Source: Chromobacterium haemolyticum
Lineage (GTDB): Bacteria; Pseudomonadota; Gammaproteobacteria; Burkholderiales; Chromobacteriaceae
NCBI RefSeq assembly: GCF_002081825.1
Contig: NZ_MUKU01000033.1
Location: 1 to 56,153, forward strand
Length of the DNA: 56,153 nucleotides
Direction of reading: 5' to 3'
In this document: piece by piece, positions 1,217 to 17,169 of the stretch
How the letters are laid out: the number at the start of each line of letters is the position of its first letter
Position numbering within the stretch: position 1 is the first letter of the stretch
Position numbers and translations under genes: made by a program
Notes under the pieces: generated by a model
Told to the model about the DNA's origin: nothing
The model's database searches: none
The model's input: the letters and a program-made list of their open reading frames with translations, nothing else

Positions 1217-1280
1217 AGTTTCCGGGCGCGGCCGGGCCGCGCCCGCTTCCTGTCCTTATCCAAATTTAGGAGTGTTGATC

Positions 1281-1823: not shown

Positions 1824-3566
1824 ATGGACCACCTGATTAAAACGCAAGCCTGGGACGCGCTGTTCAACGATCCGGAACTGGGCGCCGGCAATTTCCTGTT
1901 CAAGGCCCACGCCGCCTACGGCGGCAGCCGGGAAGACTATCTGTTCCTGGAAAAGCCTTTTATCGGCCCGCGCGGCAACGCCTATCAGTCCTTTTCCTTG
2001 GACAGCCTGTTCCATCTGGTGAGCGATCTGGCGGCCTGGTACCGCCAGCAGGGCATCCAGGCGGGGCGGCATGTCTGCTTGTTCCTGGGCGACGGCATTC
2101 CGTCCTTCCTGCACTTCCTGGCGCTGGGCAGCCTGGGCTGCGTGCCGGTGCTGATCAACGGCCATCTGCGCGCGGACATCGCGGCGCTGTACGCGCAGCG
2201 CAACCGCTTCGACGTGTTCGTCTACGACAAGGAAACCGACGCGCGTTGGGACCTGGCCGGCGCGCTGCGCGGCCTCACCGCGCTGGACGCGGGCTTCAAC
2301 GCCGGCGCGGCGGTGGCGTTGGCGCCGCTGCCGGCTTCCGGCTGGCCGGCGGCGGTGAAGGACGAGGACATCGTGATGGTGTGCCACAGCTCCGGCACCA
2401 CCGGCATTCCCAAGGCGGTGCTGTTTGGCCACGCGCAGTTCTTCAACGGCAAGCGCGAGCGTCTGCGCGGCTTTGTCGAGCAAGACGAAGACAAGCTGGC
2501 CACGGCGATGCCGCCTACCCACGCGGCCGGCGTCAGCTATCTGATGACGGCCACCATGCTGCAATTGCCGGCGCTGGCGCTGGCGACGCAAACCGGCCAG
2601 GTGGCGGCCAATCTGATCGCCAGCTTCCAGCCCACCATCGTCACCGCGTTTTCCCAGACTTACGCCTCCTTCGCCGAACTGAACCTGCCGGACGGCTATT
2701 TCGACTCGGTGCGCCGCTATTACAACACCGGCGACACCGCGCACGAGGCGCATATCCGCCAACTGCTGCGCCTGGCGCCGCGGGGCCGCTTCACCGATAT
2801 GTTCGGCGCGTCCGAGCTGGGCATGTCGCAGTTCTTCAAGGTGTCCACGCCGGAGCAAGTGGCCAGCAAGCGCACGGTGGGTGCGGCCGCGTCCTACGCG
2901 CGCTGCGACGTACTCACTCCGCAGGGCGAGTTGCTGCCGGACGGCCAGCCGGGCTATATCGGCGTGCGTTCGCCCACGGTGACGCCGGGTTATTACGGCC
3001 AGCCGCACCTGACCGCGCTGACCACGCTGAACGGCTACTGGCTGACCGGCGACATCGGCCTGCGCCTGGACAACGGCGAGTTCGTGCACCTGGACCGCAT
3101 CGTGGACGCGGTGCCGACCCCGCTGGGCGTGCCGGCCTACACCCTGCTGCTGGAAGAACATTTGCTGAGCCATGCGGATCTGTTCGACGTCAGCGTGATC
3201 GGCGTTTCGCGCGGGCCGACGCGCGAAGAGGCGGTGCTGGTGCTGGCGCGCGGCAAGGCCGGCGCGGCGCTGGACGCGGACGAGGTGCTGCGCCAGGCGC
3301 TGGACTGCTTCCCGTTCAAAGGCCGCGGCGCGCTGCCGGACTACACCGTGTGCGTGGGCGTGCTGGGCGACGACTACGCGCTGCCGGTGGGCTCCACCGG
3401 CAAAGTGCTCAAGCGCGTGGAGCGCGATCAGTTCTGGAGCTGGCAGCGCGACTACGACGACGGCCTGCGCGACGTATTCAGCGCGCTGCGCTGGAACCAG
3501 TCCCTGGACCGTCAGCCGGAGGCGGCGGCGGAGCCGCAGAGCCTGCTGGACTACCTGAGGGGCTGA
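1824..3566 (+). CDS. AMP-forming acyl-CoA ligase (ANL superfamily)
   Basis: A 580-residue adenylate-forming enzyme that activates a carboxylate with ATP, normally to a CoA thioester. Visible motifs in order are the P-loop HSSGTTGIPKAV (about 189-200), the A5-type motif GASELGM (about 329), YWLTGDIG (about 403), the hinge LDRIVDAV, and the C-terminal catalytic lysine in GSTGKVLKR (about 525). It is the first gene of the Paa-like oxygenase run and lies 3 bases before paaA. It is not of the PaaK type: length and motifs differ from the roughly 430-residue phenylacetate-CoA ligases. A second ligase domain is encoded in the DAHP synthase fusion at 9762, so this one may act on a different or later acid. 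No good ribosome site precedes the ATG; a later start is possible. Confidence 0.8.
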   Translation: MDHLIKTQAWDALFNDPELGAGNFLFKAHAAYGGSREDYLFLEKPFIGPRGNAYQSFSLDSLFHLVSDLAAWYRQQGIQAGRHVCLFLGDGIPSFLHFLALGSLGCVPVLINGHLRADIAALYAQRNRFDVFVYDKETDARWDLAGALRGLTALDAGFNAGAAVALAPLPASGWPAAVKDEDIVMVCHSSGTTGIPKAVLFGHAQFFNGKRERLRGFVEQDEDKLATAMPPTHAAGVSYLMTATMLQLPALALATQTGQVAANLIASFQPTIVTAFSQTYASFAELNLPDGYFDSVRRYYNTGDTAHEAHIRQLLRLAPRGRFTDMFGASELGMSQFFKVSTPEQVASKRTVGAAASYARCDVLTPQGELLPDGQPGYIGVRSPTVTPGYYGQPHLTALTTLNGYWLTGDIGLRLDNGEFVHLDRIVDAVPTPLGVPAYTLLLEEHLLSHADLFDVSVIGVSRGPTREEAVLVLARGKAGAALDADEVLRQALDCFPFKGRGALPDYTVCVGVLGDDYALPVGSTGKVLKRVERDQFWSWQRDYDDGLRDVFSALRWNQSLDRQPEAAAEPQSLLDYLRG

Positions 3567-3569
3567 GGG

Positions 3570-4532
3570 ATGGAGACGACGGACGATCTGGAAGCGCTGG
3601 AGCTGGCGTTTCAACAGCGGATAGACCGCGGCGAGAAGATAGAGCCGCAGGACTGGATGCCGGAGGCCTACCGCCGCACTTTGCAGCGGCAGATGGCGCA
3701 GCACGCTCATTCCGAATACGTGGGCATGTTGCCGGAGGGCGCCTGGATCACCCGCGCGCCCAGCCTCAGCCGCAAATGCATTTTGTTGGCCAAGGTGCAG
3801 GACGAGGCCGGCCACGCCCAGTATCTGTACAGCGCGCTGGAGAGCCTGGGCCTGAGCCGGGAGCAGGCTTACGGGCAGTTGCTGGCCGGCGAGGCCAAGT
3901 ATCTGAATATTTTCAACTATCCGGCATTGAGTTGGGCGGACGTCGGCATGATCGGCTGGCTGACCGACGGCGCCGCCATCGTCAACCAAGTGCCCTTGTC
4001 GCGCTGTTCCTACGGCCCTTACGCCCGCGCCATGGTGCGCATCTGCCAGGAGGAGAGCTTCCACCACCGCCAGGGCTTTGATCTGGTGCGGCGGCTGGCG
4101 GAGGGCACGCCGGCGCAGCGGCGGATGGCGCAGGACGCGCTCAACCGCTGGTGGTGGCCGACGGTGATGGTGTTCGGCCCGCCGGACGAGGATTCGGTGC
4201 ACTCGCAGCGTTCGATGCGCTGGGGCGTCAAGCTGTATTCCAACGACACCCTGCGCCAGAAGTTCGTCGATCAGACCGTGCCGCAAGTGCTGCACCTGGG
4301 CCTGACGGTGCCGGACCCGGATCTGCGTTTCAACCCGGACACCGGCCATTACGAGATCGGCCGCATCGACTGGGACGAATTCAACCGGGTGATCCGGGGC
4401 CAGGGCCTGTGCAACCGCGAACGCATCGCCAGCCGCCGCCGGTCCTGGGACGAGGGCGCCTGGGTGCGCGAAGCCGCCGCCTGCCACGCCGTCAAGCTGG
4501 CGGCGCGGCCGCAAGGAGAACGAGATGCATGA
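3570..4532 (+). CDS. paaA: Phenylacetyl-CoA epoxidase-type catalytic subunit PaaA
   Basis: A 320-residue ferritin-like diiron oxygenase subunit, close to the 309 residues of E. coli PaaA. The ligand motifs are visible: [10 protein letters not shown] (about 77-86) and [10 protein letters not shown] (about 159-168), each giving the E..E/H set for iron. PaaA with PaaC forms the catalytic core that epoxidises the ring of an aryl-CoA thioester. Here the neighbours are anthranilate biosynthesis and an aryl-CoA ligase. The usual phenylacetate catabolic genes (paaF, G, H, J, Z, K) are absent, so the substrate is probably not phenylacetyl-CoA. It starts 3 bases after the ligase stop and overlaps paaB by 8 bases. 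Confidence 0.9.
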
Positions 4533-4806
4533 GTGGAAGCTTTGGGAAGTGTTCGCGCGCAGCCAAAACGGCGTGGCGCACCGCCACGTGGGCAGCGTGC
4601 AGGCCAGCGACGCGGCGATGGCGCTGCAGCACGCGCGCGATGTGTTCACCCGCCGCGGCGAGTTCGTCAGCTTGTGGCTGGTGGCCGCCGAAGACCTGGT
4701 GAGCAGCGGCGAGGTGGAGCGCGCGCCGTGGTTCGAGACCGCGGCGGACAAGGGCTTCCGCCACGCTACCTATTACGAGGTGCCAGAGGGAGTGCAACAC
4801 CTGTGA
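4525..4806 (+). CDS. paaB: Epoxidase small subunit PaaB
   Basis: A 93-residue protein, matching the usual length of about 95 for PaaB. The opening [14 protein letters not shown] and the block [14 protein letters not shown] are characteristic of this structural subunit, which bridges PaaA-PaaC units in the epoxidase complex and has no metal site. The ATG overlaps the end of paaA and its stop overlaps the paaC start, indicating translational coupling in one operon. There is little doubt about the family; the physiological substrate of the complex is the open question. Confidence 0.9.
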
Positions 4807-5573
4807 CCCTGCATCCGGAATTGAAAAACCTGCGCGCGGAATACCTGCTGCGCCTGGGCGACAACGCGCTGATTCTGTCGCAGCGCTTGTGCGAATGGTG
4901 CGGCCACGCGCCCACGCTGGAAGAAGACCTGGCGCTGAGCAATGTGGCGCTGGACTTGCTGGGCCAGGCGCGGCTGTGGCTGGACGCCGCCGGCCTCGGG
5001 CTGACGCCGCCGCAGAGCGAGGACGATCTGGCCTACGGCCGCGAGGCCCAAGCCTTCCGCAACGTGCTGCTGGCGGAGCTGACCCGCGGCAATTTCGCCG
5101 ACACCCAGATGCGCCAGTTCCTGTTCGACAGCTGGCATTGCCTGCTGCTGCGCGAGCTGTCGGATTCGGCGGACGCGGAAGTGGCCGCCATCGCCGCCAA
5201 GGCGTTGAAAGAGGCCACTTACCACCTGCGCCGCAGCAGCGGCTGGGTGGTGAGGCTGGGCGACGGCAGCCGGCAAAGCCGGGAATTCTGCCGGCTGGCG
5301 CTGGAGCGCTGCTGGCATTACGTGGGCGAATTGTTCGAGATGGACGAACTGGAGCAGGCGATGCTGGCCCAGGGCGTGGGCTGCGACCTGGCCGCGCTGT
5401 ATCCGGAATGGCTGGCCTACGTCAACGAAGTGCTGGCCGCGGCCACGCTGGAGCCGCCGCGCGCGGCGCCCGGCGTTAGCGGCGGCAAGCGCGGCGCGCA
5501 CGGCGAGGCGCTGGTGGCCCTGCTGATGGAGATGCAGTTCCTGACCCGCGCCCATCCGGGAGCCGGCTGGTGA
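4803..5573 (+). CDS. paaC: Epoxidase structural subunit PaaC
   Basis: A 256-residue ferritin-fold protein (E. coli PaaC is about 248). It starts with GTG at 4803, overlapping the TGA of paaB, with GAGGGAG just upstream. Recognisable blocks are YLLRLGDNALILSQRL (about 13-28), LSNVALDLLGQAR (about 46-58) and YHLRRSSGWVVRLGDG (about 139-154), all typical of PaaC, which pairs with PaaA but does not hold the catalytic iron. The open frame continues upstream of the GTG, but that part is the out-of-frame shadow of paaB. Confidence 0.88.
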   Translation: MTLHPELKNLRAEYLLRLGDNALILSQRLCEWCGHAPTLEEDLALSNVALDLLGQARLWLDAAGLGLTPPQSEDDLAYGREAQAFRNVLLAELTRGNFADTQMRQFLFDSWHCLLLRELSDSADAEVAAIAAKALKEATYHLRRSSGWVVRLGDGSRQSREFCRLALERCWHYVGELFEMDELEQAMLAQGVGCDLAALYPEWLAYVNEVLAAATLEPPRAAPGVSGGKRGAHGEALVALLMEMQFLTRAHPGAGW

Positions 5574-6091
5574 GCCGGGTGCACGGCCTGGAGGTGCAAA
5601 GCGGCACCGAGCGCGTTTGGGAATGGCTGGCCGGCATTCCGGACCCGGAAATGCCCTACGTCTCCATCGTGGATCTGGGCATCGTGCGCGACGTGCGCTG
5701 GGAGGACGACGCGCTGCGCGTGGTAGTGACGCCCACCTATAGCGGCTGCCCGGCCAAGGCGCAGATAGACAGCAATATCCGCCAGACCCTGCAAGACCGG
5801 GGCGTGGAGGCGGTGCGGCTGGAAACGCGGCTGCACCCGGCCTGGAGCACGGACTGGCTCAGCGAAAGCGGCCGGTCCAAGCTGCGCGCCGCCGGCATCG
5901 CCCCGCCCTTGCCGGCGGAGCCGGGCTGGCAGCGCTTGAGCTTCGTCGCCGTCGCCGCGCCGCGGGTGTCCTGTCCGCGCTGCGGTTCCGACGCCACCCG
6001 CCCGCAGGGCGAATTCGGCGGCACCGCCTGCAAGTCGCTGTATCAGTGCGACGCCTGCCGCAATCCGTTCGAGCACTTCAAGAGTTTATGA
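5570..6091 (+). CDS. paaD: PaaD-like FeS/zinc assembly protein
   Basis: A 173-residue protein with an N-terminal MIP18/DUF59-type domain (PDPEMPYVSIVDLGIV, about 25-40; GCPAK about 62) and a C-terminal zinc-ribbon-like cysteine set, CPRC and CDAC (about 137-168). PaaD is needed to mature the epoxidase, probably the Fe-S cluster of PaaE. It starts with GTG at 5570 in a 4-base overlap with the paaC stop and is followed 10 bases later by paaE. Its retention shows that the whole five-gene epoxidase set was kept as a functional unit. Confidence 0.87.
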   Translation: MSRVHGLEVQSGTERVWEWLAGIPDPEMPYVSIVDLGIVRDVRWEDDALRVVVTPTYSGCPAKAQIDSNIRQTLQDRGVEAVRLETRLHPAWSTDWLSESGRSKLRAAGIAPPLPAEPGWQRLSFVAVAAPRVSCPRCGSDATRPQGEFGGTACKSLYQCDACRNPFEHFKSL

Positions 6092-6101
6092 GGGAGTAGC
6101 C

Positions 6102-7169
6102 ATGCCGCAGTTTTACCCCTTGCAGCTGACCGAGATCCAGCGCGACACGCCGGACAGCCTGCTGTTGACGCTGGAGCCGTCGGAAGAACACCGCGACCGC
6201 TTTCGCCACGAGCCGGGCCAGCATCTGACCCTGCGCGCCTGGCTGGACGGCGAGGAAGTGCGCCGCAGTTATTCGCTGTGCAACGCGCCGGACGCGCCCA
6301 AGCTGCAGCTGGCGATCAAGCGGGTGGCCGGCGGCCGCTTCTCGCAATGGGCGCACGATAGTCTGGGGCCGGGCGCGATGCTGGAAGCCTTGCCGCCGTC
6401 CGGCCGCTTCGGCCTGCCGGCGGCGCCGGAAACGGCCCGCCATTACGCCGGCTTCGCCGCCGGCAGCGGCATCACCCCGGTCTTGTCCATCCTGCAGGCC
6501 TCCTTGCTGCGCGAACCGCTCAGCCGTTTCACCCTGGTTTATTGCAACCGCAACCTGGCCTCGCTGCAGTTCCGCGAAACGCTGGCGACGCTGAAGGACC
6601 GCTACCCGGCGCGGCTGTCCCTGGTCTATCTGTTCAGCGCGGAAGAGCAGGAGATCGAGCTGTTCAACGGCCGGCTGGACCGCGAGCGCTGCCTGGCGCT
6701 ATTGCGCGGCTGCCTGCCGGCGGCCTCCATCGACCACGCTTACGTTTGCGGCCCGGCCGGCATGATGGCGGCGGTGAGCCAGGCGCTGAGCGACAGCGGC
6801 CTGCCGCCGGAACGCATCCGCAGCGAACACTACGCCGCGGCCCCGGCCGCCGGTCCGGCCCGCGCCGAGCGCGCGTTGGCGGACAGCCCGGAGCGGGTGC
6901 GGGTGACGGTGAGGATGGACGGCATGCAGCGCCAGGTGGAATTGGGCGCGCCGGTGGACAACCTTTTGGACGCGCTGCTGCAAGCCGGCGTCACGCCGCG
7001 CTATTCCTGCAAGGCCGGCGTTTGCGCCACCTGCCGCTGCCAGGTGCTGGCCGGCGAAGTGGACATGGAGGCGCCGCACGCATTGGCGCCCGAGGAGGTG
7101 GCCGCCGGCTATGTGCTCAGCTGCCGCAGCCGCCCGCTGACTTCAACACTGGCGCTGTCATTCGACTGA
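6102..7169 (+). CDS. paaE: Epoxidase reductase subunit PaaE
   Basis: A 355-residue electron-transfer protein. Residues about 1-100 form an FAD-binding ferredoxin-reductase barrel (RRSYSLCNAP), about 105-235 an NADP-binding domain (GFAAGSGITPVLSIL; YVCGPAGMM), and about 265-355 a plant-type 2Fe-2S domain (CKAGVCATCRC with a fourth Cys in LSCRSRP). It passes NADPH electrons to the PaaA diiron centre. Size and domain order match E. coli PaaE (356 residues). GAGGGAG precedes the ATG. It is the last epoxidase gene, 22 bases before the MFS transporter. Confidence 0.9.
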   Translation: MPQFYPLQLTEIQRDTPDSLLLTLEPSEEHRDRFRHEPGQHLTLRAWLDGEEVRRSYSLCNAPDAPKLQLAIKRVAGGRFSQWAHDSLGPGAMLEALPPSGRFGLPAAPETARHYAGFAAGSGITPVLSILQASLLREPLSRFTLVYCNRNLASLQFRETLATLKDRYPARLSLVYLFSAEEQEIELFNGRLDRERCLALLRGCLPAASIDHAYVCGPAGMMAAVSQALSDSGLPPERIRSEHYAAAPAAGPARAERALADSPERVRVTVRMDGMQRQVELGAPVDNLLDALLQAGVTPRYSCKAGVCATCRCQVLAGEVDMEAPHALAPEEVAAGYVLSCRSRPLTSTLALSFD

Positions 7170-7191
7170 TCCGCGCCTAAGGACACACATC

Positions 7192-8373
7192 ATGACCTCT
7201 CAAAACGCCCTGTCCCGCTGGGCGCTGACCCTCTATTGCCTGGCCACCGGGTTTTCCGTGGCGGCGGTGGTCTACCACCAATCCATGACGCAGCTGATCG
7301 CCGTCTCCTTCGGCCTGTCCGCGGACTCGCTGTGGGGGCTGTCGGTAGCCACCCAGTTCGGCTACGGCGCCGGCCTGGTTCTGGGCTTGCCGCTGGGCGA
7401 CATGATCGCGCCGCGCCGGCTGATCCCCGCCGCCATGCTGGCGCTGGGCGTGGTGCTGCTGCTGGTGGGCATCGCCCCGTCGCCTTGGCTGATGGTGCTG
7501 CTGTGCGGCCTGGCCGGCCTGCTGTCCATCGCTGGCCAGCTGTTACTGGCCTACAGCGCCAAGGCGCTGGCGGCGGAGCAGCGCGGGCGGGTGGTGGGCA
7601 GCTTGCTCACTTCTTTGTTCGCCGGCCTGCTGCTGGCGCGGGTGCTGGCCGGCTGGGGCGGCGAACATATCGGCTGGCGCGGCATTTATCTGGTGGTGGG
7701 CGGCCTGACCTTCGTCATCGGCCTGGCGCTGCGCGGCTGCATCGGCGAGGTGCCGCTGGCCGGCCAGCTGCGCTACGGCCGCATGCTGAGCCAGCAGGGC
7801 GCGCTGTGGCTGAAGCTGCCGGAGCTGCGCCGTCTGGCGCTGGTGGCCGCCTGCTTCTTCGCCGCCTCCAACGGCATCTGGGCCAATTTGTCCTCGCTGA
7901 CCCATTCCACCCTGAACTGGAACGCCGGCCAGACCGGCCTGCTGGCCTTCACCTCCATCGCCGCGCTGCGCGCGCCGTGGTTGGCGCAACGCCTGCAACG
8001 GCGGCTGGACTGGCACGGCGTGATCGCGCTGCTGGGCATCGCCATCGCCGCCACCTCGCTGGCCGGCGTCTGGCTGGGCAGCCAGGTGCTGATGATCGTG
8101 GCTTTCCTGATGGTGACCGATCTGGGCGTGCGTTCGGTACAGACCATTGCCCAGGGTCGGGTGCTGGGCATAGACCCCGCCGCCGCCTCGCGGCTGAACA
8201 GCTTGTTCATGACGGTTTTCTTCTTCGGCGCCGCGCTGGGCTCCTGGTTGGGCGGCATCGCCATCCACCGCTTGGGCTGGGCCGGCATGTATCTGTTCCC
8301 GGCGGCCTGCGCCGCCGCCGGGCTGCTGTTCCTGAGCTGGCGCAACCCCGCGCTGCGCTTTGCCCGGGCCTGA
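7192..8373 (+). CDS. MFS transporter, probable exporter of the cluster product
   Basis: A 393-residue, very hydrophobic protein with about 12 membrane segments and the loop-2 region PLGDMIAPRRL that corresponds to the MFS signature GxxxDxxGxRR. It is placed between the epoxidase genes and the HDO-cupin gene with only 22 bases to paaE, so it is most likely co-transcribed. In a biosynthetic setting the likely job is efflux of, and self-protection against, the end product; uptake of a precursor is the alternative. Substrate cannot be read from the sequence. Confidence 0.8.
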   Translation: MTSQNALSRWALTLYCLATGFSVAAVVYHQSMTQLIAVSFGLSADSLWGLSVATQFGYGAGLVLGLPLGDMIAPRRLIPAAMLALGVVLLLVGIAPSPWLMVLLCGLAGLLSIAGQLLLAYSAKALAAEQRGRVVGSLLTSLFAGLLLARVLAGWGGEHIGWRGIYLVVGGLTFVIGLALRGCIGEVPLAGQLRYGRMLSQQGALWLKLPELRRLALVAACFFAASNGIWANLSSLTHSTLNWNAGQTGLLAFTSIAALRAPWLAQRLQRRLDWHGVIALLGIAIAATSLAGVWLGSQVLMIVAFLMVTDLGVRSVQTIAQGRVLGIDPAAASRLNSLFMTVFFFGAALGSWLGGIAIHRLGWAGMYLFPAACAAAGLLFLSWRNPALRFARA

Positions 8374-8449
8374 TTTCGCAACACCGCAACACCTGGACGC
8401 CGCGGCGCTTTCCGCGCCGCGAACCGCACACTTCGATTGGGAGATGGAC

Positions 8450-9649
8450 ATGGAAGCATTGTTGGAAAAGAGCGGCAGCAAGACCCCGTTGATCGCAGGC
8501 ATGAGCTTGATCTGGGCCGACTGGCTGAAAGAAGAAGACCTGCAGGACCTGGTGGAACACCCGCTGCTGCAAGCGCTGGAACGCAATGAGGCCAGCCTGG
8601 CCACCGTGCGCACCCTGCTGATTCAGCACAGCCATTACTCGCGCCACTTCACCCGCTATCTGTGCGCCTTGATGGGCCAACTGAGCGATCCGGCCGACGT
8701 GATGGCGCTGATGGAAAACATGCGCGAGGAAATGGGCGTGGACGGCGGCAGCGCCATCACCCACGCCGAAATGTTCCAGCGCACCTTGCGCGTGGTGGGC
8801 GCGGTGCCGGCCTCGCACGCGCCGCTGCCGCAGACCCTGGCGATGGTGGACACCATGATGGGCCACTGCCAGTCCTCGGACGCGTTGGCCGGCCTGGCCG
8901 CGATGTGCCTGGGCGCGGAAGCCATCGTGCCGTTGATCTACCGCCCCATCCTGCAAGCGCTGCAACACCACGGTTTTGGCGAGGACGCCACCGAGTTCTT
9001 CAGCCTGCACATCGAGGAAGACGAAGACCACGCGCTGACCATGCTGGCCATCATGCAGCGCCTGACCCTGGACCAGGACGCGCGCCGCGAGCAAGCCATC
9101 GCCGTGGGCCGCGAGCTGATCGCCCGCCGCGTGGCGATGTTCGACGCCATCTGGGCGCATTGCCAGGCGCAGCCGGCCGCCGCGCCCGCCGCGGCCCCGG
9201 CCGGCCATTTCTCCTCCGCCGATTTCTGGCGCGTGCCCAGCCAGTTGCAGGCCCAGTTGCCGGCGCGGCTGAGCCACGAGCAGGTGATGGCAGCCAGCCA
9301 GGGCGGCGACCAGGCCTTCTCCTCCGAGCGCAAGCACAAGGTGCACATCGTCGATCTGCCCAGCCGCACCATCAGCCTGACCATAGGCCGGCTGGAAGAG
9401 GGCGAGTCCACCCGCCTGCACCGCCACAACTACGAGACGGTGATCTACGTCACCCAGGGTCAGGGCTATTCCCGCATTGGCGACCGCCAGGTGCCGTGGC
9501 GCGCCGGCGACGCCATCTACGTGCCGGTTTGGGCCGAGCACCAGCACGTCAATACCGGCGCGGAGGAGTGCGTCTACCTGGCCTGCGAGAACGCGCCCTT
9601 GTTGCAGAACCTGGGCGGCATCGCGCTGCGCGAGGAACTGAGCGCCTGA
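8450..9649 (+). CDS. Haem-oxygenase-like diiron oxidase fused to a cupin domain
   Basis: A 399-residue two-domain protein. Residues about 1-240 are an HDO-type helical bundle with candidate iron ligands E93/E94, H105, E157 and the H187-x3-D191-x2-H194 motif. Residues about 260-399 are a cupin with HRHNYET (about 324-330) and EHQHVN (about 364-369). The same HDO-plus-cupin order occurs in SznF, which N-hydroxylates a guanidine and rearranges it to an N-nitrosourea; SznF also has an N-terminal dimerisation domain not seen here. The ATG at 8450 is preferred to 8444 and to the frame start at 8360 because GGGAG lies 6 bases before it. N-oxidation or oxidative C-C chemistry on an anthranilate-derived intermediate is an inference. 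The first-helix ligand is unclear (H60/H62/H66 rather than an obvious Glu). Confidence 0.75.
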   Translation: MEALLEKSGSKTPLIAGMSLIWADWLKEEDLQDLVEHPLLQALERNEASLATVRTLLIQHSHYSRHFTRYLCALMGQLSDPADVMALMENMREEMGVDGGSAITHAEMFQRTLRVVGAVPASHAPLPQTLAMVDTMMGHCQSSDALAGLAAMCLGAEAIVPLIYRPILQALQHHGFGEDATEFFSLHIEEDEDHALTMLAIMQRLTLDQDARREQAIAVGRELIARRVAMFDAIWAHCQAQPAAAPAAAPAGHFSSADFWRVPSQLQAQLPARLSHEQVMAASQGGDQAFSSERKHKVHIVDLPSRTISLTIGRLEEGESTRLHRHNYETVIYVTQGQGYSRIGDRQVPWRAGDAIYVPVWAEHQHVNTGAEECVYLACENAPLLQNLGGIALREELSA

Positions 9650-9683
9650 AGCCCGGCCGCGTCTCCCGCCCCTGGGCGGCGCG

Positions 9684-9731
9684 GCCCGCCAGCCTTGCCC
9701 GGCGCAAGCGGCCCTTGTCGGGCGGGCTTTT
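9684..9731 (+). terminator. Possible terminator after the HDO-cupin gene
   Basis: GCCCGCC (9684-9690) pairs with GGCGGGC (9721-9727), directly followed by TTTT. The loop is long and may hold a second small stem. It may split the cluster into two transcripts, or act as an attenuator before the DAHP synthase fusion. Confidence 0.4.
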
Positions 9732-9761
9732 CCCAATCAGCACCCGATAAACGAGATCCCG

Positions 9762-12527
9762 ATGCTGACACTATCCAAAGCCTGGAGCCCAAGCAGCTGG
9801 CAGGCGAAACCGCACACGCAAATGCCTGATTACGACGACGGCGCCGCGCTGCATGCCGTGCTGTCGCGTCTGAGCGCCTATCCCAACCTAGTGCCCTCCG
9901 CCGAAATCCGCCGGCTGCGCGCCGCGCTGGCCGGCGTGGCGAGGGGCGAGGGTTTCGTCATCCAGGCCGGCGACTGCGCCGAGCGCTTCGCCGGCCTGCG
10001 GCCGGACGTGCTGGGCGGCCACTACCGCCTGCTGGAGCGTATGGCCGCGGACCTGGGCCAGGCGCTGCAACGCCCGGTGCTGCGCATCGGCCGCATCGCC
10101 GGCCAGTACGCCAAGCCGCGCAGCCAGCCGCAGGAAGCGCTGGGCGGATTGAGCCTGCCCAGCTACCGCGGCGACATCATCAACGGCGTGGAATTCGCCG
10201 CCGCCGCGCGCGCCCACGACCCGCAGCGGCTGGAATCCGCTTACTTCCACGCCGCCGCCAGCCTCAACTACCTGCGCGGCCTGGACCGCGAGGCCGCGCC
10301 GCGCGACAGCGGCTACTACGTTAGCCACGAGGCGCTGCTGCTGCCCTATGAACAGGCCCAACTGCAACAGGACGAGCGGGGCGACTGGTATTGCGGCTCC
10401 GGCCACTTCCTGTGGGTGGGCGAACGAACCCGCCAACTGGACGGCGCGCACGTGGAATTCCTGCGCGGCGTGAACAACCCCGTGGGCGTCAAAGTGGGTC
10501 CCGGCATGGCGCGCGACGAACTGCTGCGTCTGATCGACGCGCTGAACCCGGACAACGAGGCCGGCCGGCTGACCCTGATCACCCGCTTCGGCGCGGCTCA
10601 CATCCAGCGCCTGCCGGAACTGCTGAACGCGGTGCGCGCCGAAGGCCGCCACGTGTTGTGGCTGTGCGACCCGATGCACGGCAACGGGGTACAGGCCGCC
10701 AACGGCGTGAAGACCCGGCGCTATGAAGACATCCTGGCCGAGGTGGAGGCCTTCCTCGCCGCCCACCGCGACTGCGGCAGCCACGCCGGCGGCGTGCACC
10801 TGGAATTGAGCGCCCAGGACGTCACCGAATGCCTGGGCGGACCGGAGGCGCTGGCCGAGGAAGACCTGGGCCGCGCCTATCACAGCAGCTGCGACCCGCG
10901 GCTCAACCCACGCCAGGCGCTGGCCCTGACCGATCGCTTGATCGCCGCGTTGACCCAGCCCTCCGGCGCGGCGGCGAGGCCGGCGCCGGACGCCGCCGCC
11001 CCGGAACCGCTGATCAATCTGGCCGAGCGCCTGGCCGCCAGCCGGCCGGACAGCGACCGGCTCTGCTTTGTCGGCCCCGGCTTCAGCCTCAGCTACCGCC
11101 AGCTCAACCGCGCGGTGCGCCGCCAGGCCGCCTGGCTGCAAACCGAAGGCGTGGCCGCCGGCGAGCGCGTGCTGATTGCCCTGGACGACGGCCCGGAGCT
11201 GGCGGTGGCTTTCTACGCCGCGCTGGCGGTGGGCGCTTTGCCGGTGGTGGCCAATCCGCGGCTGGACGCCGCCTCGCTGCACCATCTGCTGGCCGACGCC
11301 GCCCCGGCGCTGTGCCTGGGCCAGTCCTCGCAGATCGCGGTGTGGCCGGCCGCGGCCAAGCTGCGGCTGCTGGACGCCGGCGCTCACCTGGAATGGCTGG
11401 CCGGCGACAGCGCCGACGACGATTGGGACGATTTCGCGCGCCAGCCGGAAGACGCGCCGGCGCTGATCCAGTACACCTCCGGCAGCACCGGCCAGGCCAA
11501 GGGCGTGGTGCACAGCGCCCGCTCCATGCTGGCGGTGTGCTCGCACTTCGCCGCCGGCCAACTGCGGCTGGGCGCGGACGACGTGCTGTACTCGGCGCCC
11601 AAATCCTTCTTTGGCTACGGGATGGGCAACAGCCTGTTCTTCCCGCTGTATCTGGGCGCTTGCGGCGTGCTGGACGGCGCCTGGCCGTCGGCCGAACGCG
11701 TGGCCGGCGTGCTGCGTCAGTTCCGCCCCACCGTGCTGTTCGCCGTGCCCACTCTGTACCGGCTGCTGCTGGAACACGGCCTGGAGCCGTCCGACGTGGC
11801 GATCCGGCTGGCCTTCTCCGCCGGGGCTCCGCTGTCCGCCCCCTTGGCGCGGCGCTGGCGTCAGCGTTTCGGCTTTGATCTGCACGATGGCATCGGCGCC
11901 ACCGAAATGTGCCATGTGTTCGCCACCAGCTACCCGGACGCGCTGCGCTCCGGCAGCGTTGGCCGCATGTTGCCGGGCTGGGAGGCGCGCATCGTCGACG
12001 CCGACGGCCGGGACGCGCCGGCCGGCGAATGCGGGGTGCTGCTGGTCAAGGCGCCCAGCCGCGCGCTGGGCTACTGGCGGCGTCCGCAGGAAGAACAGGA
12101 GCGTTTCCAGGACGGCTGGTATCGCACCGGCGACCTGTTCAGCCGCGACGAGCACGGCTATCTGAGTTTCCACGGCCGCGAGGACGACCGCTTCAAGGTG
12201 TTCGGCCGCTGGGTGGTGCCGGTGGAAATCGAAAACCTGCTGGCCGCGTTGTTGCCGGAACTGGGCGACGCCTATGTGGTGGCCGCGCCGGACCGCGACG
12301 GCGAAGCCCGCCCGGCGCTGATTCTGCGCGCCGGCGACGACAGCGAGGCGCTGGTACGCCTGGTGCACGCCACGCTGGAAGCCCATCTGGAAAGCTATAA
12401 GCGTCCGGCGCTGGTGCTGGCGCTGGAGGAGATTCCGCTGAACAAGAACGGCAAGCCGGACCGGCGTGCGATGGCGCAGCTGGCCGCCCGGGAACAGGCG
12501 GAGCGCAAGGAGGAAAAAGTATGCTGA
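9762..12527 (+). CDS. Class II DAHP synthase fused to a benzoate/anthranilate-type CoA ligase
   Basis: A 921-residue bifunctional protein. Residues about 1-398 are a class II (PhzC/plant-type) DAHP synthase: FVIQAGDCAERF (about 65), RIGRIAGQYAKPRS (about 107), GVNNPVGVKVGP (about 236) and CDPMHGNG (about 304). It would condense PEP and erythrose-4-phosphate, opening the shikimate route. After an Ala/Pro linker, about 415-921 is a complete AMP-forming ligase with P-loop YTSGSTGQAKGVVH, GIGATEMCHVFATS, YRTGDLF and the catalytic Lys in NKNGKPDRR. SAPKSFFGYGMGNSLFFPL is diagnostic of the benzoate-/2-aminobenzoate-CoA ligase family. The fusion joins the first and last steps of anthraniloyl-CoA synthesis. 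The next gene overlaps it by 7 bases. There is no frameshift; both domains are full length. Confidence 0.85.
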   Translation: MLTLSKAWSPSSWQAKPHTQMPDYDDGAALHAVLSRLSAYPNLVPSAEIRRLRAALAGVARGEGFVIQAGDCAERFAGLRPDVLGGHYRLLERMAADLGQALQRPVLRIGRIAGQYAKPRSQPQEALGGLSLPSYRGDIINGVEFAAAARAHDPQRLESAYFHAAASLNYLRGLDREAAPRDSGYYVSHEALLLPYEQAQLQQDERGDWYCGSGHFLWVGERTRQLDGAHVEFLRGVNNPVGVKVGPGMARDELLRLIDALNPDNEAGRLTLITRFGAAHIQRLPELLNAVRAEGRHVLWLCDPMHGNGVQAANGVKTRRYEDILAEVEAFLAAHRDCGSHAGGVHLELSAQDVTECLGGPEALAEEDLGRAYHSSCDPRLNPRQALALTDRLIAALTQPSGAAARPAPDAAAPEPLINLAERLAASRPDSDRLCFVGPGFSLSYRQLNRAVRRQAAWLQTEGVAAGERVLIALDDGPELAVAFYAALAVGALPVVANPRLDAASLHHLLADAAPALCLGQSSQIAVWPAAAKLRLLDAGAHLEWLAGDSADDDWDDFARQPEDAPALIQYTSGSTGQAKGVVHSARSMLAVCSHFAAGQLRLGADDVLYSAPKSFFGYGMGNSLFFPLYLGACGVLDGAWPSAERVAGVLRQFRPTVLFAVPTLYRLLLEHGLEPSDVAIRLAFSAGAPLSAPLARRWRQRFGFDLHDGIGATEMCHVFATSYPDALRSGSVGRMLPGWEARIVDADGRDAPAGECGVLLVKAPSRALGYWRRPQEEQERFQDGWYRTGDLFSRDEHGYLSFHGREDDRFKVFGRWVVPVEIENLLAALLPELGDAYVVAAPDRDGEARPALILRAGDDSEALVRLVHATLEAHLESYKRPALVLALEEIPLNKNGKPDRRAMAQLAAREQAERKEEKVC

Positions 12528-14038
12528 GCGAAGAGGCGTTTCTGCGTTACGGCGACCACGGCTTCAGCCTGGCGCCGCTGTGGCGGACCCTGCCGCTGCC
12601 GGCGGGCGCGGACCCGCTGGCGCTGTACCAGGCGCTGGCCAACCAGGGCAGGGACTATCTGTTTGAAACCGGCCACTGGCGCTACGGCGAATTCCAGCGC
12701 GCCTATTCGGTGATCGGCCTGCCCTGCCGCGAGCGGGTGGAACTGGACGAAGGCCGGCTGCGCCATTGGCGCGACGGCCAACTGCTGCGCGAACTGGAGT
12801 GCGAGGACCCGCTGGCGGAGCTGGCCAGGCTGCGGCTGGGCTGGACCGCGCCGCATTTCAGCGCCTTGCCGCCGTTCTCCGGCGGCCTGTTCGGCTATTT
12901 CGGCTTTGAAACCACCCGTTTGATCGAGCCGCGGCTGCGCCGCCAGCCGCGCAAACCGTCAGGGCTGGCGCTGCCGGACGCGCTGCAATGGCTGAGCCTG
13001 GATTTGCTGGTGCTGGACCACCAGCAGGCCAGCGTCTACTGCATCGTCCACGAATCCACCGAGGCGACGGCCGCTTACGCGCGCGGCCAGCGGCGCTTGA
13101 GGGAGCTGTGCGAGCGCACCCGCGCGCTGCTGGCGGAACCGCCGGCGCCGCCGCCGGCGTTCGCCGCGGACGCGGCGGCGGACCCCGCGCTGAATCACGC
13201 TTTTTCGCGCGAGGACTTCCAGCGGGCGGTGGGCCGGATCAAGGACTACATCGCCGCCGGCGACGTGATGCAGGTGGTGCTGTCCCAGCGCATGAGCCAG
13301 CCCTTCGCCGCCGATGCGCCCACGCTGTACCGGGCTCTGTCCGGCCTGGGCGACACGCCTTACCGCTACCTGCTCAATCTGGGCGACGCCCAGATCGTCG
13401 GCGCCTCGCCGGAAATGCTGTTCCGCCAGCAAGACGAGCGGGTGACCAGCCGCCCGATGGCCGGCACCCGCCGCCGCGGCGCGGACGCGGCGGAAGACCA
13501 GGACCTGCGCCGCGAACTGCTGGCCGATCCCAAGGAAATCGCCGAGCACATGATGCTGGTGGACCTGGCGCGCAACGATCTGGGCCGGCTGGCCGAGCTG
13601 GGCAGCGTGCAGGTGGACGAGTTGCTGACCGTGGAGAACTTTTCCCACGTCATGCACATCGTCTCCACCGTGTCCGGCAAGCTGCCGCAACAGGCGCAGG
13701 CGCTGGACGTACTCAAGAGCACCTTCCCGGCCGGCACCCTCAGCGGCGCGTCCAAGGTGCGGGCGCTGGAAGTGATCGCCGAGCTGGAGCCGCATTCGCG
13801 CGGCGTCTACGGCGGCTCCATCGGCTACATCGGCTGGCGCGGCAACGCCGACCAGGCCATCACCATACGCACCGGCGTGCTGCAAGGCGGCCAACTGCAC
13901 GTGCAGGCCGGCGCCGGCGTGGTGCAGGACTCGCTGGCCGAGCGCGAATGGCAAGAGACCCTGGAAAAAAGCCGGCTGATGCTGCTGGCGGCCAAGCTGG
14001 CCGCGGCGGCGCGGCAAGAGGAGGCGGCATGCATTTGA
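12521..14038 (+). CDS. Anthranilate synthase component I (cluster paralogue, TrpE-like)
   Basis: A 505-residue chorismate-utilising enzyme. The C-terminal catalytic domain shows SPEMLF, RPMAGTRRRG, EHMMLVDLARND and TFPAGTLSGASKVRALE, as in anthranilate synthase I; GASK replaces the common GAPK. The N-terminal feedback-binding motif LLES of biosynthetic TrpE corresponds here to LFET (about 47-50), which could weaken tryptophan inhibition. With the adjacent glutamine amidotransferase it would turn chorismate into anthranilate. It overlaps the upstream fusion gene by 7 bases and the downstream component II gene by 10, so the three are translationally coupled. Aminodeoxychorismate or ADIC synthase activity is the main alternative. 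Confidence 0.82.
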   Translation: MLSEEAFLRYGDHGFSLAPLWRTLPLPAGADPLALYQALANQGRDYLFETGHWRYGEFQRAYSVIGLPCRERVELDEGRLRHWRDGQLLRELECEDPLAELARLRLGWTAPHFSALPPFSGGLFGYFGFETTRLIEPRLRRQPRKPSGLALPDALQWLSLDLLVLDHQQASVYCIVHESTEATAAYARGQRRLRELCERTRALLAEPPAPPPAFAADAAADPALNHAFSREDFQRAVGRIKDYIAAGDVMQVVLSQRMSQPFAADAPTLYRALSGLGDTPYRYLLNLGDAQIVGASPEMLFRQQDERVTSRPMAGTRRRGADAAEDQDLRRELLADPKEIAEHMMLVDLARNDLGRLAELGSVQVDELLTVENFSHVMHIVSTVSGKLPQQAQALDVLKSTFPAGTLSGASKVRALEVIAELEPHSRGVYGGSIGYIGWRGNADQAITIRTGVLQGGQLHVQAGAGVVQDSLAEREWQETLEKSRLMLLAAKLAAAARQEEAACI

Positions 14039-14637
14039 TGATCGATAACTACGATTCCTTCACCTACAACGTGGTGCAGTACCTGGGCATGCTGGGCGCG
14101 GACATCATGGTGAGGCGCAACGACGAGATCAGCCTGGAGGAGATAGAAGCGTTGCGGCCGCGCTCGCTGATCGTTTCGCCCGGACCCTGTTCGCCCGCCG
14201 AGGCCGGGGTGTCGCTGGCGGCGATTCGCCGCTTCGCCGGCCGCCTGCCCATCCTCGGCATCTGCCTGGGCCACCAGTGCATCGCCGCCGCCTTCGGCGC
14301 GCAAGTCCGCCGCGCCGACGAAGTGCTGCACGGCAAGGTGTCGCGCCTCCATCACGACGGCGAGGGCCTGTTCGAAGGCCTGGCCGACGGCCTCAAGGTG
14401 GCGCGCTACCACTCGCTGGTGGCGGACGCGCTGCCGGAGGAACTGGTCGCCACCGCCTGGGCGCTGCGCGCCGACGGCGGCCGGGGCGAGATCATGGCGC
14501 TGCGCCACCGCAGCTTGCCCATTCACGGCCTGCAATTCCATCCGGAATCGGTGCTGACCGAACAAGGGCTCAGCATGCTGGGCAATTATCTGCGGCTGGC
14601 GGAGCGCGCCGCGCAAGCGGAAGCCGAACCTATCTGA
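14029..14637 (+). CDS. Anthranilate synthase component II (TrpG-like amidotransferase)
   Basis: A 202-residue class I glutamine amidotransferase supplying ammonia to component I. It has DNYDSFTYN at the start, SPGPCSPAEAG (about 54), the nucleophile Cys in GICLGHQ (about 82) and the His/Glu pair in QFHPES (about 172). The ATG at 14029 overlaps the end of component I by 10 bases. PabA, the folate-route paralogue, cannot be excluded by motifs, but the neighbouring aryl-CoA ligase of the aminobenzoate type favours anthranilate as product. Confidence 0.87.
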   Translation: MHLMIDNYDSFTYNVVQYLGMLGADIMVRRNDEISLEEIEALRPRSLIVSPGPCSPAEAGVSLAAIRRFAGRLPILGICLGHQCIAAAFGAQVRRADEVLHGKVSRLHHDGEGLFEGLADGLKVARYHSLVADALPEELVATAWALRADGGRGEIMALRHRSLPIHGLQFHPESVLTEQGLSMLGNYLRLAERAAQAEAEPI

Positions 14638-14684
14638 CACGCGTAAGGGGCGGCCATGGCCGCCCACGCCAAGAAAGCGACAAG

Positions 14685-15113
14685 ATGCAAGATCCCCATT
14701 TTTCCAAGGCCTACCCGATCCGCTTCTCCCACTGCGATCCGGCCGGCATCGTTTACTTCCCGCAATACCTGGTGCTGAGCAACTGGCTGGTGGAAGACTG
14801 GTTCACCGAAGGGCTGGGCATCAGCTTCGCCGACTTCATCGGCCCGCGCCGGCTGGGCCTGCCCATCGTCAAGCTGGACTGCGAATTCCTGCGCCCGTCC
14901 CGCCAGGGCGATCAGCTGACGCTGCAACTGCGCGTGGCGCGGCTGGGCGGCAGCTCGCTGACCCTGGACATCGAAGGCCACGCCAACGGCGAACTGCGGC
15001 TGCGTTGCCGCCAGGTGCTGGTGCACACCTCGCTGGACAGCGGCGCCGCCATCGACGCCCCGGCCGACGTGCGCGCCGCCTTGAGCGGTTTGCTGGAGGA
15101 GGCGGCGGCATGA
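14685..15113 (+). CDS. 4-hydroxybenzoyl-CoA thioesterase-family protein
   Basis: A 142-residue hot-dog-fold thioesterase. FSHCDPAGIVYFPQY (about 14-28) is the 4HBT signature, with the catalytic Asp in HCDPAG. It would release a CoA thioester made by the ligase/epoxidase part of the cluster, or clear a dead-end aryl-CoA. The ATG at 14685 is the first in frame after the component II stop; the intergenic 47 bases carry no terminator. The stop overlaps the RidA-like start. From memory, thioesterase and Rid-family genes also sit together in 2-aminobenzoyl-CoA catabolic clusters, which supports the substrate assignment. Confidence 0.8.
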   Translation: MQDPHFSKAYPIRFSHCDPAGIVYFPQYLVLSNWLVEDWFTEGLGISFADFIGPRRLGLPIVKLDCEFLRPSRQGDQLTLQLRVARLGGSSLTLDIEGHANGELRLRCRQVLVHTSLDSGAAIDAPADVRAALSGLLEEAAA

Positions 15114-15502
15114 TGCAAATCCTGCAACCACCGGAATGGGCGCGCCCGCGCGGCTACGCCAACGGCATCGCCGCGCGCGGCACCCTGGTGTTCACCTCCG
15201 GCCAGCTGGGCTGGGACGCGGAAGAAAAGCTGGTGGGGCCGGGCTACGCCGAGCAGGCGATCCAGATCCTGAAGAACATCGTGGCGGTTCTGGCCGAGGC
15301 CGGCGCGCGGCCGGAGCATCTGGTGCGGTTGACCTGGTATGTGTCCGACCGCGACGCTTATTTCGCCGAGGCCCGGGAAGTGGGCCGCGCCTACCGGGAG
15401 CTGATCGGCCATTTCCCGGTGATGAGCGCGTTCCAGGTGGCGTCTTTGATGGTGCCGGGGGCCAAGGTGCAGATCGAGGCGACGGCGGTGATTCCGGATT
15501 GA
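15110..15502 (+). CDS. Rid-family (YjgF/YER057c/UK114) protein without the catalytic arginine
   Basis: A 130-residue protein starting at ATG 15110, overlapping the thioesterase stop by 4 bases. The fold markers TSGQLGWDAE (about 28-37), EAGARPEHLVRLTWYVSD and VPGAKVQIEA are clear. In RidA imine deaminases a conserved Arg sits in FPARS; here the equivalent is FPVMS (about 101-105), so Arg is replaced by Met. It is therefore unlikely to be a classical enamine/imine deaminase and more probably belongs to one of the Rid subgroups found in ring-cleavage and biosynthetic clusters, where the protein may act on an unstable enamine or ring-opened intermediate. It is the last gene of the run. Confidence 0.8.
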   Translation: MMQILQPPEWARPRGYANGIAARGTLVFTSGQLGWDAEEKLVGPGYAEQAIQILKNIVAVLAEAGARPEHLVRLTWYVSDRDAYFAEAREVGRAYRELIGHFPVMSAFQVASLMVPGAKVQIEATAVIPD

Positions 15503-15599: not shown

Positions 15600-17057
15600 T
15601 CAGCCGCCCGACGGCAAGGACCGGCCTTCCAGACATAGGCGCAGATTCCGCGCCTGTTGCGCGGCCTGCTCCGGCGTGGCCACATTGGCGAAACCGAACA
15701 ACAGCCCTTTGCCGCAATCCGCCTCCAGCGCCCGCGCAGACAGCGCGGCGATGCCGAAGCGCTCGCGCTTGGCGCGCTGAGCCAAGGCGATGTCGTCCTC
15801 CGAACGATGCAGCCGCGCCAGCAAATGCAGGCCGCAGGCCGGCACGTCGAAACTCATTCGTTCGCCGAACTCATGCCGCAAACTGGCGATCACCAGCTCG
15901 CGGCGCTGGGCGTAGGCGGAGCGCATCTTGCGCAGATGGCGGATGAAGTGCCCTTCCTGCATGAAATCCACCACCACCCCCTGATTCAACAGCGGGCAGC
16001 CGTCGTGCCAGGTGTGGCAGGCGGCGTTGAAGCGCGTCAGCAGGGGCTTGGGCACCACCAGATAGGCCAGGCGCAGCGCCGGGCTCAATACCTTGCTGAA
16101 GCTGCCGACGTAGAGCACGTTGTCGTTGGCGCCCAGGCTGGCCAGCGCCGGCTGCGGGCGACCGTCGTAGCGGTATTCGCTGTCGTAATCGTCTTCGATG
16201 ATGAAGGCGTTGTTGTGCTCGGCCCAGGCCAGCAGCTCAAGGCGCCGCACCAGGGACAGCGACACCCCCAGCGGGCTTTGATGCGCCGGGGTCACCAGCG
16301 CGAAACGGGCGTGCGGCGCTCTCTCCTTGGCGATGGCCACCTGCATGCCGTCCCGGTCCACCGGCACCGGCACCAGCTCCGCGCCCATTTCCGCCATCAG
16401 GTGACGGCTGGGCGGGAAACAGGGGTCTTCAATCCACACCTGGTCCAGCGGCCGCAGCAGGGTGCGGCCGATCAAATTCAGCGCGCCGCGGTAGCCGGCG
16501 GTGATGAATACCTGCTGCGGCGAGCAGTCCAGCCCGCGCGACAGGTGCAGATAGGCGGCGATGGCCTCGCGCAGCGGCCCGTAGCCGGCGGGCTGCGGGT
16601 AGGACAGAAAACGGTTTTGCAGCCGCAGCTGGCGGGTGTTCAGGCTGGCCCACAATTTGCGCGGGAACAGGTCCAGCGCCGGCAAGCCCAGTTGATAGGG
16701 CAGGGGCTGCCAGTCCGAGGCGGAGTCGAACAAGGACAAGCTGGCCGGGCGCGGCGCCGGCGCGTCCGCAGGGCGGGGCTGCTGCATGCGCACTTCCGCC
16801 AGCCGCGGCGACACCACGGTGCCGGCCTGGCCGCGCGCCTCCAGATAGCCTTCGCCTATCAATAATTCGTAAGCCAGCTCGACGGTATTGCGCGACACTT
16901 GCAGCTCGCTAGCCAGCGCGCGGATGGACGGCACCCGTTGTCCCGGCGTCAGGCTGCCCTGGCTGATGGCCTGGATGAAGCGTTGATACACTTGGCGGTA
17001 CAGCGGCAGCGCGTCGTCCTGACTGGATAGCTCCGGGGCGGCAAGGCCGGCGCTCAC
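15600..17057 (-). CDS. MocR-type (GntR-aminotransferase) transcriptional regulator
   Basis: The protein has an N-terminal GntR winged-helix domain (LYRQVYQRF; PGQRVPSIRALASELQVSRNTVELAYELL) and a C-terminal fold-type I aminotransferase-like domain with the PLP lysine in SFSKVLSPALR and IIEDDYDSEYRYD. MocR proteins sense PLP or amino-compound ligands and usually govern a neighbouring locus, so it may control the anthranilate-type cluster or the divergent DedA gene. I favour the GTG at 17057 (485 residues): GGGAG lies 7 bases upstream. The longest frame begins at 17198, but that codon falls beside a probable -10 box, upstream of the expected transcript start. Confidence 0.8.
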   Translation of the reverse strand: MSAGLAAPELSSQDDALPLYRQVYQRFIQAISQGSLTPGQRVPSIRALASELQVSRNTVELAYELLIGEGYLEARGQAGTVVSPRLAEVRMQQPRPADAPAPRPASLSLFDSASDWQPLPYQLGLPALDLFPRKLWASLNTRQLRLQNRFLSYPQPAGYGPLREAIAAYLHLSRGLDCSPQQVFITAGYRGALNLIGRTLLRPLDQVWIEDPCFPPSRHLMAEMGAELVPVPVDRDGMQVAIAKERAPHARFALVTPAHQSPLGVSLSLVRRLELLAWAEHNNAFIIEDDYDSEYRYDGRPQPALASLGANDNVLYVGSFSKVLSPALRLAYLVVPKPLLTRFNAACHTWHDGCPLLNQGVVVDFMQEGHFIRHLRKMRSAYAQRRELVIASLRHEFGERMSFDVPACGLHLLARLHRSEDDIALAQRAKRERFGIAALSARALEADCGKGLLFGFANVATPEQAAQQARNLRLCLEGRSLPSGG

Positions 17058-17169
17058 GTCGGCGCTCCCGAGCGCGGACAGGAGAAGAGGGGGACTTGCG
17101 GCAACTGAGGCATGGCGGCTTCCTGAAAGCGGTTTAGTTTGAAAGTCGATAGCCGTTGCAGAATCAATT

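Follow-up and report, generated by a model that had tools for sequence, protein, structure and literature searches.

What would a bacterium make with a set of genes that couples the synthesis of anthranilate to a phenylacetyl-CoA-type ring epoxidase and to a relative of diazotising enzymes? The question is raised by positions 1824-15502 of contig NZ_MUKU01000033.1 of Chromobacterium haemolyticum (assembly GCF_002081825.1), a stretch of 56,153 nucleotides that was analysed whole and is called the window here; it is contig C27 of a 5.29 Mb genome, and its proteins are 97-100% identical to their matches in C. alkanivorans. Thirteen genes there run in one direction, closely packed, several of them overlapping by a few bases. 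The families, structural matches and related loci of their products support biosynthesis, not catabolism, with anthranilate, whose dedicated synthesis the run appears to encode, as the building block. We lean, though only slightly, towards an outline in which the product would be derived from anthranilate, oxidised by the Paa complex and equipped with an N-N bond; it would probably be a reactive diazo-type natural product.

Composition and conservation of the gene run

The thirteen genes are as follows.

1824..3566, +: L1, adenylate-forming enzyme of the CreM/AvaA6/Tri17 type (ATP-dependent, nitrite-activating, N-N bond) by sequence comparison, 580 amino acids
3570..4532, +: PaaA-type catalytic epoxidase subunit; diiron ligands and equivalents of Lys68 and Phe108 kept
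4525..4806, +: PaaB-type subunit (Pfam/NCBIfam)
4803..5573, +: PaaC-type structural subunit; GTG start at 4803
5570..6091, +: PaaD-type Fe-S maturation protein (Pfam/NCBIfam)
6102..7169, +: PaaE-type reductase, under its equivalog cut-off
7192..8373, +: MFS transporter, by sequence a probable exporter
8444..9649, +: HDO-cupin didomain oxidase, 401 amino acids, of SznF-like architecture by domain order and candidate ligands
9762..12527, +: fusion of a class II DAHP synthase and a PqsA-like anthranilate-CoA ligase, 921 amino acids
12521..14038, +: anthranilate synthase component I, with a PMAGT motif
14029..14637, +: anthranilate synthase component II (glutamine amidotransferase), by sequence
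14685..15113, +: hotdog thioesterase; CDPAGIV motif in 7/7 loci
15110..15502, +: Rid-family protein, by sequence

Pfam and NCBIfam scans bear out the families that the first-pass annotation had named as a co-directional set at these positions, with two amendments: the DAHP synthase and the CoA ligase, which it had counted separately, are a single fusion protein, and the first gene, L1, had been overlooked. PaaA, PaaB, PaaC and PaaD score above their NCBIfam equivalog cut-offs and PaaE below (372.6 vs 420.8). Pfam cut-offs are exceeded by far for the DAHP synthase and ligase parts and for anthranilate synthase I, but their scores stay short of the equivalog or subfamily cut-offs of NCBIfam (489.7 of 614.7, 319.4 of 375.25 and 437.7 of 517.7, respectively). 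Anthranilate synthase I carries PMAGT where PabB has a Lys-type motif.

A scan with the HDO-cupin protein across 84,980 species, one genome each, using peptide patterns that reach close relatives only, returned six loci, in Chromobacterium alkanivorans, C. alticapitis, Pseudomonas fontis, P. trivialis, Solimicrobium silvestre and Lonsdalea quercina. All thirteen genes are present in unchanged order in each of the six, across four genera and at 55-100% identity, and a further Chromobacterium genome (G410) likewise has thirteen, making eight genomes with that of the window. Such recurrence of gene order is beyond chance, and because the same thirteen genes stand in the same order in all eight genomes, the run is a single unit. 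What varies is the DAHP synthase part, which is fused to the ligase in five of the eight genomes, forms an adjacent separate gene in Solimicrobium, and is absent from both Pseudomonas loci and their flanks.

The run is rare. Full-length HDO-cupin proteins occur in 4 of 19 genomes of the genus, and an order-wide sample of 399 genomes held four with any match at 1e-20, that of the window's own genome being the sole full-length one. Among 398 sampled genomes of the genus of P. trivialis three had a match at 1e-60, namely P. trivialis (71%), one with a full-length relative of 47% identity in a different type of cluster, and one with an HDO alone. Of 369 class-wide genomes, just one besides that of the window contains a relative of L1 at 1e-50. 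No HDO-cupin relative was found in viral contigs, and none of the 38 plasmid records matched covered 80% of the protein.

L1 as a probable N-N-bond enzyme

The best NCBIfam model for L1 is AvaA6, 3-aminoavenalumate diazotase (277 bits; the next model scores 139.5), and the scores mark L1 as a relative of AvaA6, not as that equivalog. Its four best structures in the PDB are 9xb8 (3.9e-71), 8ztz (3.4e-68) and two entries for Tri17 (8tf7 and 9bq0, about 1e-53), which is described as forming N-N bonds by joining nitrite to hydrazones and as converting anilines to diazo compounds (PMC11705231); the best ordinary CoA ligase structure reaches 1.3e-17. By these measures L1 is nearer in sequence to the CreM/AvaA6/Tri17 group than to acyl-CoA ligases, and it appears rather likely that it forms an N-N bond.

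L1 could instead be a second acyl-adenylating enzyme, in which case the operon would yield an aminobenzoate either hydroxylated or oxidised at nitrogen (to nitroso, nitro or hydroxylamino) and the HDO would act as an aryl-amine N-oxygenase. HDOs are indeed reported to include N-oxygenases (PMC13108848), L1 retains two superfamily motifs, SGTTG for ATP binding and the lysine motif TGK at the C terminus, and its score lies far under the AvaA6 equivalog cut-off. However, among the matches listed, L1 scores over 100 bits higher with Tri17-type enzymes than with any CoA ligase whose structure is solved, and its hinge reads DRxxD, as in N-N enzymes, where the CoA ligase of the same cluster has GRxDD. 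We regard acyl adenylation by L1 as unlikely.

The relatives of L1 point to the kind of amine on which an N-N-bond-forming L1 might act. In a tree of 16 rows that covers seven cluster L1s (that of G410 lies outside it) and carries a long-branch warning for its distant rows, the seven form a clade, sister with support 100/99 to enzymes of genome G077 and of a Klebsiella michiganensis plasmid. Both sister enzymes adjoin a synthase pair of the 3-amino-4-hydroxybenzoate (3,4-AHBA) type and an SDR, for which, in G077, AvaA7 is the best model, at a weak 74.6 bits (cut-off 400). AHBA-type genes also accompany more distant relatives, in genome G542 and on contig C18 of the window's own genome. Three of the four plasmid records with an L1 relative were opened, and in both of those from Streptomyces the relative adjoins a nitrosuccinate lyase (CreD) gene (788.6 and 774.2 bits, cut-off 650). 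The two CreE-like proteins there, which match no NCBIfam model, we take to be CreE from their position.

Some of these loci are worth recording for themselves. Contig C18 of the window genome (G000), at about 44.4-59 kb (L018, L027), holds genes for an AHBA-type aldolase and synthase, an HDO, a protein resembling benzoate-CoA ligases and an L1-like enzyme (identity about 30%). Three further Chromobacterium genomes likewise combine HDO, aldolase and L1-like genes. Locus L017 (G077:C28, 3774-10478) is a compact group of an AHBA-type synthase pair, an SDR, an MFS protein, an AvaA6-like enzyme and an HDO, and is likely an uncharacterised diazo-type cluster. L035, on the K. michiganensis plasmid NZ_CP048110 (from a fruit-fly isolate; 5759-13477), combines an AHBA-type pair, an SDR, an MFS protein, an L1-like enzyme and a MocR-type regulator.

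The HDO-cupin protein and its possible part in nitrogen-oxide supply

An AlphaFold model of the HDO-cupin protein was built from seven sequences (mean pLDDT 70.6; below 50 in the linker), and Foldseek ranks SznF first among its matches (E 3e-9, 366 columns across both domains, identity about 16%). The root-mean-square deviation of 15.6 means that the two domains agree individually and not as a rigid whole; for the HDO half, CtCADD has an E-value nearly as good as that of SznF and a better TM-score. Candidate ligands, assigned by spacing and not from a solved structure, are conserved in all seven loci: E95/E96, H107, E159, H189, D193 and H196 in the HDO, and H326, H328 and H366/H368 in the cupin. 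Set beside the SznF ligand residues numbered in PMC11705231, the protein shares the E-to-H spacing of 30, the H-x3-D-x2-H pattern and the HxH motif; its last cupin histidine, at 38 or 40 (39 in SznF), is off by one. The protein shows the layout of SznF, with the HDO domain first and the cupin second, and its candidate ligands form an EHEHDH set and HxH...H.

CreE-like and CreD-like matches do not occur together in any of nine genomes, the eight cluster genomes and G077. Four of the nine have CreD-like matches, and the top match in each of P. trivialis, P. fontis and the window genome is of PcaB type (the scan did not extend to the C. alkanivorans match or to two lower-scoring ones in P. fontis); the lone CreE-like match, in Lonsdalea, is hit by no NCBIfam model. 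Because no genome has both, and the scanned CreD-like proteins are PcaB-type, the HDO-cupin becomes a candidate source of nitrogen oxide, a role that we consider possible and put forward tentatively. Five of the nine genomes have narG above cut-off, a partial view of nitrite supply that leaves assimilatory reductases outside. L1 relatives of the G077 and C18 types (the latter in four Chromobacterium genomes) also have HDO genes alongside.

The HDO-cupin might alternatively convert an amino acid to an N-nitroso or diazeniumdiolate derivative, which L1 would then join to a hydroxyanthraniloyl unit. The HDO-cupin layout of SznF, GrbD and ChmM (PMC11705231), and two HDO relatives tied to EctB-type diaminobutyrate aminotransferases, which suggest amino-acid substrates, are consistent with such a route, but the run holds no amino-acid-building gene and the cupin is nearest by sequence to gentisate dioxygenase. 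This makes it distinctly unlikely, and we retain the HDO-cupin as a possible nitrogen-oxide source for L1.

HDO relatives have varied settings. On a Pantoea plasmid (L016, 11938-13938) an HDO is fused to an EctB-type diaminobutyrate aminotransferase; in Pseudomonas G840 (L078, 1607-10840) an HDO-cupin adjoins an EctB/ATP-grasp-like fusion and homologues of ThiF, TauD, GNAT and PurD; and in L020 (G256:C63, 9588-10999) a cupin gene adjoins a gene judged by eye to be HDO-like, near apparent electron-transfer flavoprotein and homocitrate-synthase homologues.

Anthranilate supply and the substrate of the Paa complex

Among solved structures, the ligase domain is nearest to PqsA (6.4e-88; best benzoate ligase 8.8e-72), and the 13-residue motif FFGYGMGNSLFFP is identical between PqsA and all eight clusters, so that in sequence the domain resembles anthranilate-CoA ligases more than benzoate ligases. 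Because the run would make anthranilate and its ligase domain is nearest to PqsA, anthraniloyl-CoA is the probable substrate of the Paa complex, as had been proposed before.

All five subunits of a PaaABCDE complex are recognisable. Identity between the cluster PaaA and four canonical copies is 62-64%, and in the alignment the cluster protein keeps all six metal ligands together with Glu49, Lys68 and Phe108, as these residues are given in PMC4498308. Six cluster PaaA sequences differ from the four canonical ones at 11 fixed positions. The paaA of P. trivialis DSM 14937 (L014, 5031-5990) has an in-frame TAG at codon 120, by pseudogenisation or sequencing error, and was left out of this count because of it.

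Scans of the run proteins found none of paaF, G, H, J, Z or K. In five of the eight genomes, no paaA besides the cluster's matches at 1e-20. PaaK is above cut-off in the three genomes that have another paaA (among them the window's own, where a second paaA/paaC lies with paaK on a separate contig), with weak matches in four and none in one. The PaaZ model is above cut-off in none of the eight, not even those with a second paaA and PaaK, and is uninformative genome-wide. Since five genomes have a single paaA match and no PaaK over cut-off, phenylacetate catabolism is disfavoured, and the earlier preference for biosynthesis stands.

The thioesterase has 4-hydroxybenzoyl-CoA and dihydroxynaphthoyl-CoA thioesterases among its relatives of known name, a grouping that would be compatible with the freeing of an acid that has kept its aromatic ring. 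The Rid protein has, in 7/7 loci, a methionine where RidA has what we take, from its motif and our alignment, to be the catalytic arginine, so it does not match RidA imine deaminases. Four Rid relatives were opened: one adjoins thioesterase and benzoate-CoA ligase genes, a second adjoins thioesterases and a salicylyl-CoA 5-hydroxylase/oxidoreductase, a third has neither partner and an AMP-binding protein nearby, and the fourth record is unannotated. The Rid/thioesterase module probably came from a catabolic operon of this CoA-dependent kind.

The first-pass annotation had favoured another fate for the epoxide of anthraniloyl-CoA, namely an oxepin or a ring-expanded aminotropone or azepine. Tropone biosynthesis is a diverted PaaZ/PaaG shunt. 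The PaaABCDE set of the run is complete, and early Paa steps are described as the known entry to tropones (PMC7497051, PMC11110157). The run has neither a PaaG-type isomerase nor a PaaZ-type hydrolase, however, and ring expansion would leave the N-N-type enzyme and the SznF-like HDO-cupin without roles. It accounts for fewer genes than a diazo-type product, which the thioesterase group, L1 and the HDO-cupin fit better, and we no longer place it first: its chance is slim. As for a CoA-dependent degradation operon for anthranilate or phenylacetate, two of the four opened Rid relatives do keep catabolic company, but a run with its own DAHP synthase and anthranilate synthase, no ring-opening, beta-oxidation or PaaK genes, and PaaK over cut-off in just 3/8 of its host genomes makes this very improbable, and we set it aside.

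Proposed pathway

For the favoured diazo-type product, we envisage that chorismate would be converted to anthranilate and anthranilate to anthraniloyl-CoA, whose ring the Paa complex would epoxidise across C2-C3, as in BoxB; because anthraniloyl-CoA has one carbon less than phenylacetyl-CoA, this bond might lie over the diiron site. The 2-amino group could then open the epoxide, and rearomatisation would give 3-hydroxyanthraniloyl-CoA, an ortho-aminophenol. The thioesterase would hydrolyse the CoA ester to the free acid, L1 would adenylate nitrite and diazotise the amine, the HDO-cupin would make or process the nitrogen oxide in place of CreE/CreD, and the MFS protein would export the product.

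We propose an ortho-aminophenol because the sister clusters start from 3,4-AHBA, and here anthranilate synthase, CoA ligase, PaaABCDE and thioesterase stand in for that gene pair. That 3-hydroxyanthranilate itself is the amine substrate has, in our judgement, a little less than an even chance. The scheme in full, in which the Paa complex gives 3-hydroxyanthraniloyl-CoA, the SznF-like HDO-cupin supplies nitrite or nitric oxide for a CreM-type diazotisation in place of the aspartate-nitrosuccinate pathway, and an ortho-quinone diazide or a heterocycle derived from it results, is doubtful in all its particulars together.

Several observations weigh against this reading. L1 does not reach the AvaA6 equivalog cut-off (277 bits against 975, for a narrow model). 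In the HDO, the first E-to-H spacing is 11 or 12 where SznF has 10, and the affinity of the cupin, taken alone, to gentisate dioxygenase counts here as well. For the L1 relatives in Klebsiella and G542 no neighbouring HDO was detected, and HDO or HDO-cupin relatives occur with no L1 seen in G840, Pantoea, G1039 and G256, so that the pairing of HDO with L1 is not exclusive. The best structural match of the thioesterase is named a 'putative thioesterase', and there is the in-frame stop codon in the P. trivialis paaA. Changes fixed in the cluster PaaA show no significant clustering around the active site: within two residues of it lie 5 of the 11 changed positions and 27 of 138 unchanged ones (Fisher p 0.059), and within three residues 6 of 11 and 38 of 138 (p 0.065). 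Benzoyl-CoA is reported to inhibit PaaABCE, and the complex does not cross-react with it (PMC4498308). The 3-position is a guess, because the oxidation of 2-aminobenzoyl-CoA described elsewhere takes place at C5, by a flavoenzyme (PMC3534580).

What looks new, within a cluster of the N-N-bond, diazo type, is the route to its aromatic amine; the nitrogen donor may be new too. For diazotase clusters without nitrite genes, the pairing of a CreM-type enzyme with an SznF-like HDO-cupin offers a testable candidate source of nitrite. If the proposal is true, it would add a further bacterial route to 3-hydroxyanthranilate and place a diazo-type pathway in Gram-negative Chromobacterium, Pseudomonas, Solimicrobium and Lonsdalea. 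To our knowledge, a Paa epoxidase acting on an aminobenzoyl-CoA would be the first such case. The characterised diazotases listed in a review of the field come from actinomycetes.

Neighbouring genes

Two genes flank the run closely.

1272..1712, +: AhpD-like (CMD family) gene, of uncertain membership; upstream in five of the eight genomes within the stretches seen
15600..17198, -: MocR-type (GntR/aminotransferase) regulator, facing the run

The MocR gene is near the run in 7/7 checkable loci, the six named ones (upstream in Solimicrobium) and the window; the stretch taken from G410 ends before its MocR gene. Further along the window, on the minus strand at 24306-29268, lie a PF12902 ferritin-like protein, whose domain is presumably of VioB type, a 650-amino-acid protein with no Pfam match, and a berberine-bridge-type FAD oxidase that looks frameshifted, its FAD and BBE domains being in different frames.

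Comparison with known systems

The gene set is undescribed in the titles and abstracts obtained by literature searches on it, which agrees with the earlier statement that no product with these genes is known; that statement had not named the penzonemycin (pzm) cluster of Streptomyces sp. SCSIO 40020, a close functional parallel and, by our comparison, the nearest one found. Roles in the pzm cluster are themselves proposals (PMC9323291). As described there, it shares with the run a DAHP synthase, an anthranilate-type synthase, a CreM homologue with a proposed role in diazotisation, a 3-hydroxyanthranilate core and an MFS transporter, but it reaches 3-hydroxyanthranilate by an isochorismatase and a dehydrogenase and nitrite by CreE/CreD homologues. 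In the run, CoA ligase, PaaABCDE and thioesterase would stand in for the former two, and the HDO-cupin for CreE/CreD.

The CreM, AvaA6 and CmaA6 clusters (cremeomycin, avenalumic acid, p-coumaric acid) likewise use an ATP-dependent ligase-like enzyme of the same group on an ortho-aminophenol-type amine. Unlike the run, they begin at 3,4-AHBA or a related amino-hydroxybenzoate and take nitrite from aspartate, and CoA epoxidation is not described for them. The CreE and CreD pair of the aspartate-nitrosuccinate pathway, which was not found in the cluster genomes, is not needed by all members of the group; 72 of 134 ava-type clusters are reported to have no nitrite genes as well (PMC10777205).

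The remaining parallels are with single enzymes. SznF (streptozotocin), GrbD and ChmM share with the HDO-cupin the order of HDO then cupin and a similar ligand pattern, but the window protein, whose HDO begins near residue 30, has no SznF-type N-terminal domain. The phenylacetyl-CoA epoxidase PaaABCDE has the same five subunits and metal ligands, whereas the complex of the run has its fixed PaaA differences, is encoded with anthranilate synthesis and has no PaaK, PaaG or PaaZ in the run. Finally, Pseudomonas aeruginosa PqsA, with its identical motif, is the nearest solved structure to the ligase domain, which, unlike PqsA, is joined to a class II DAHP synthase in most of the clusters.

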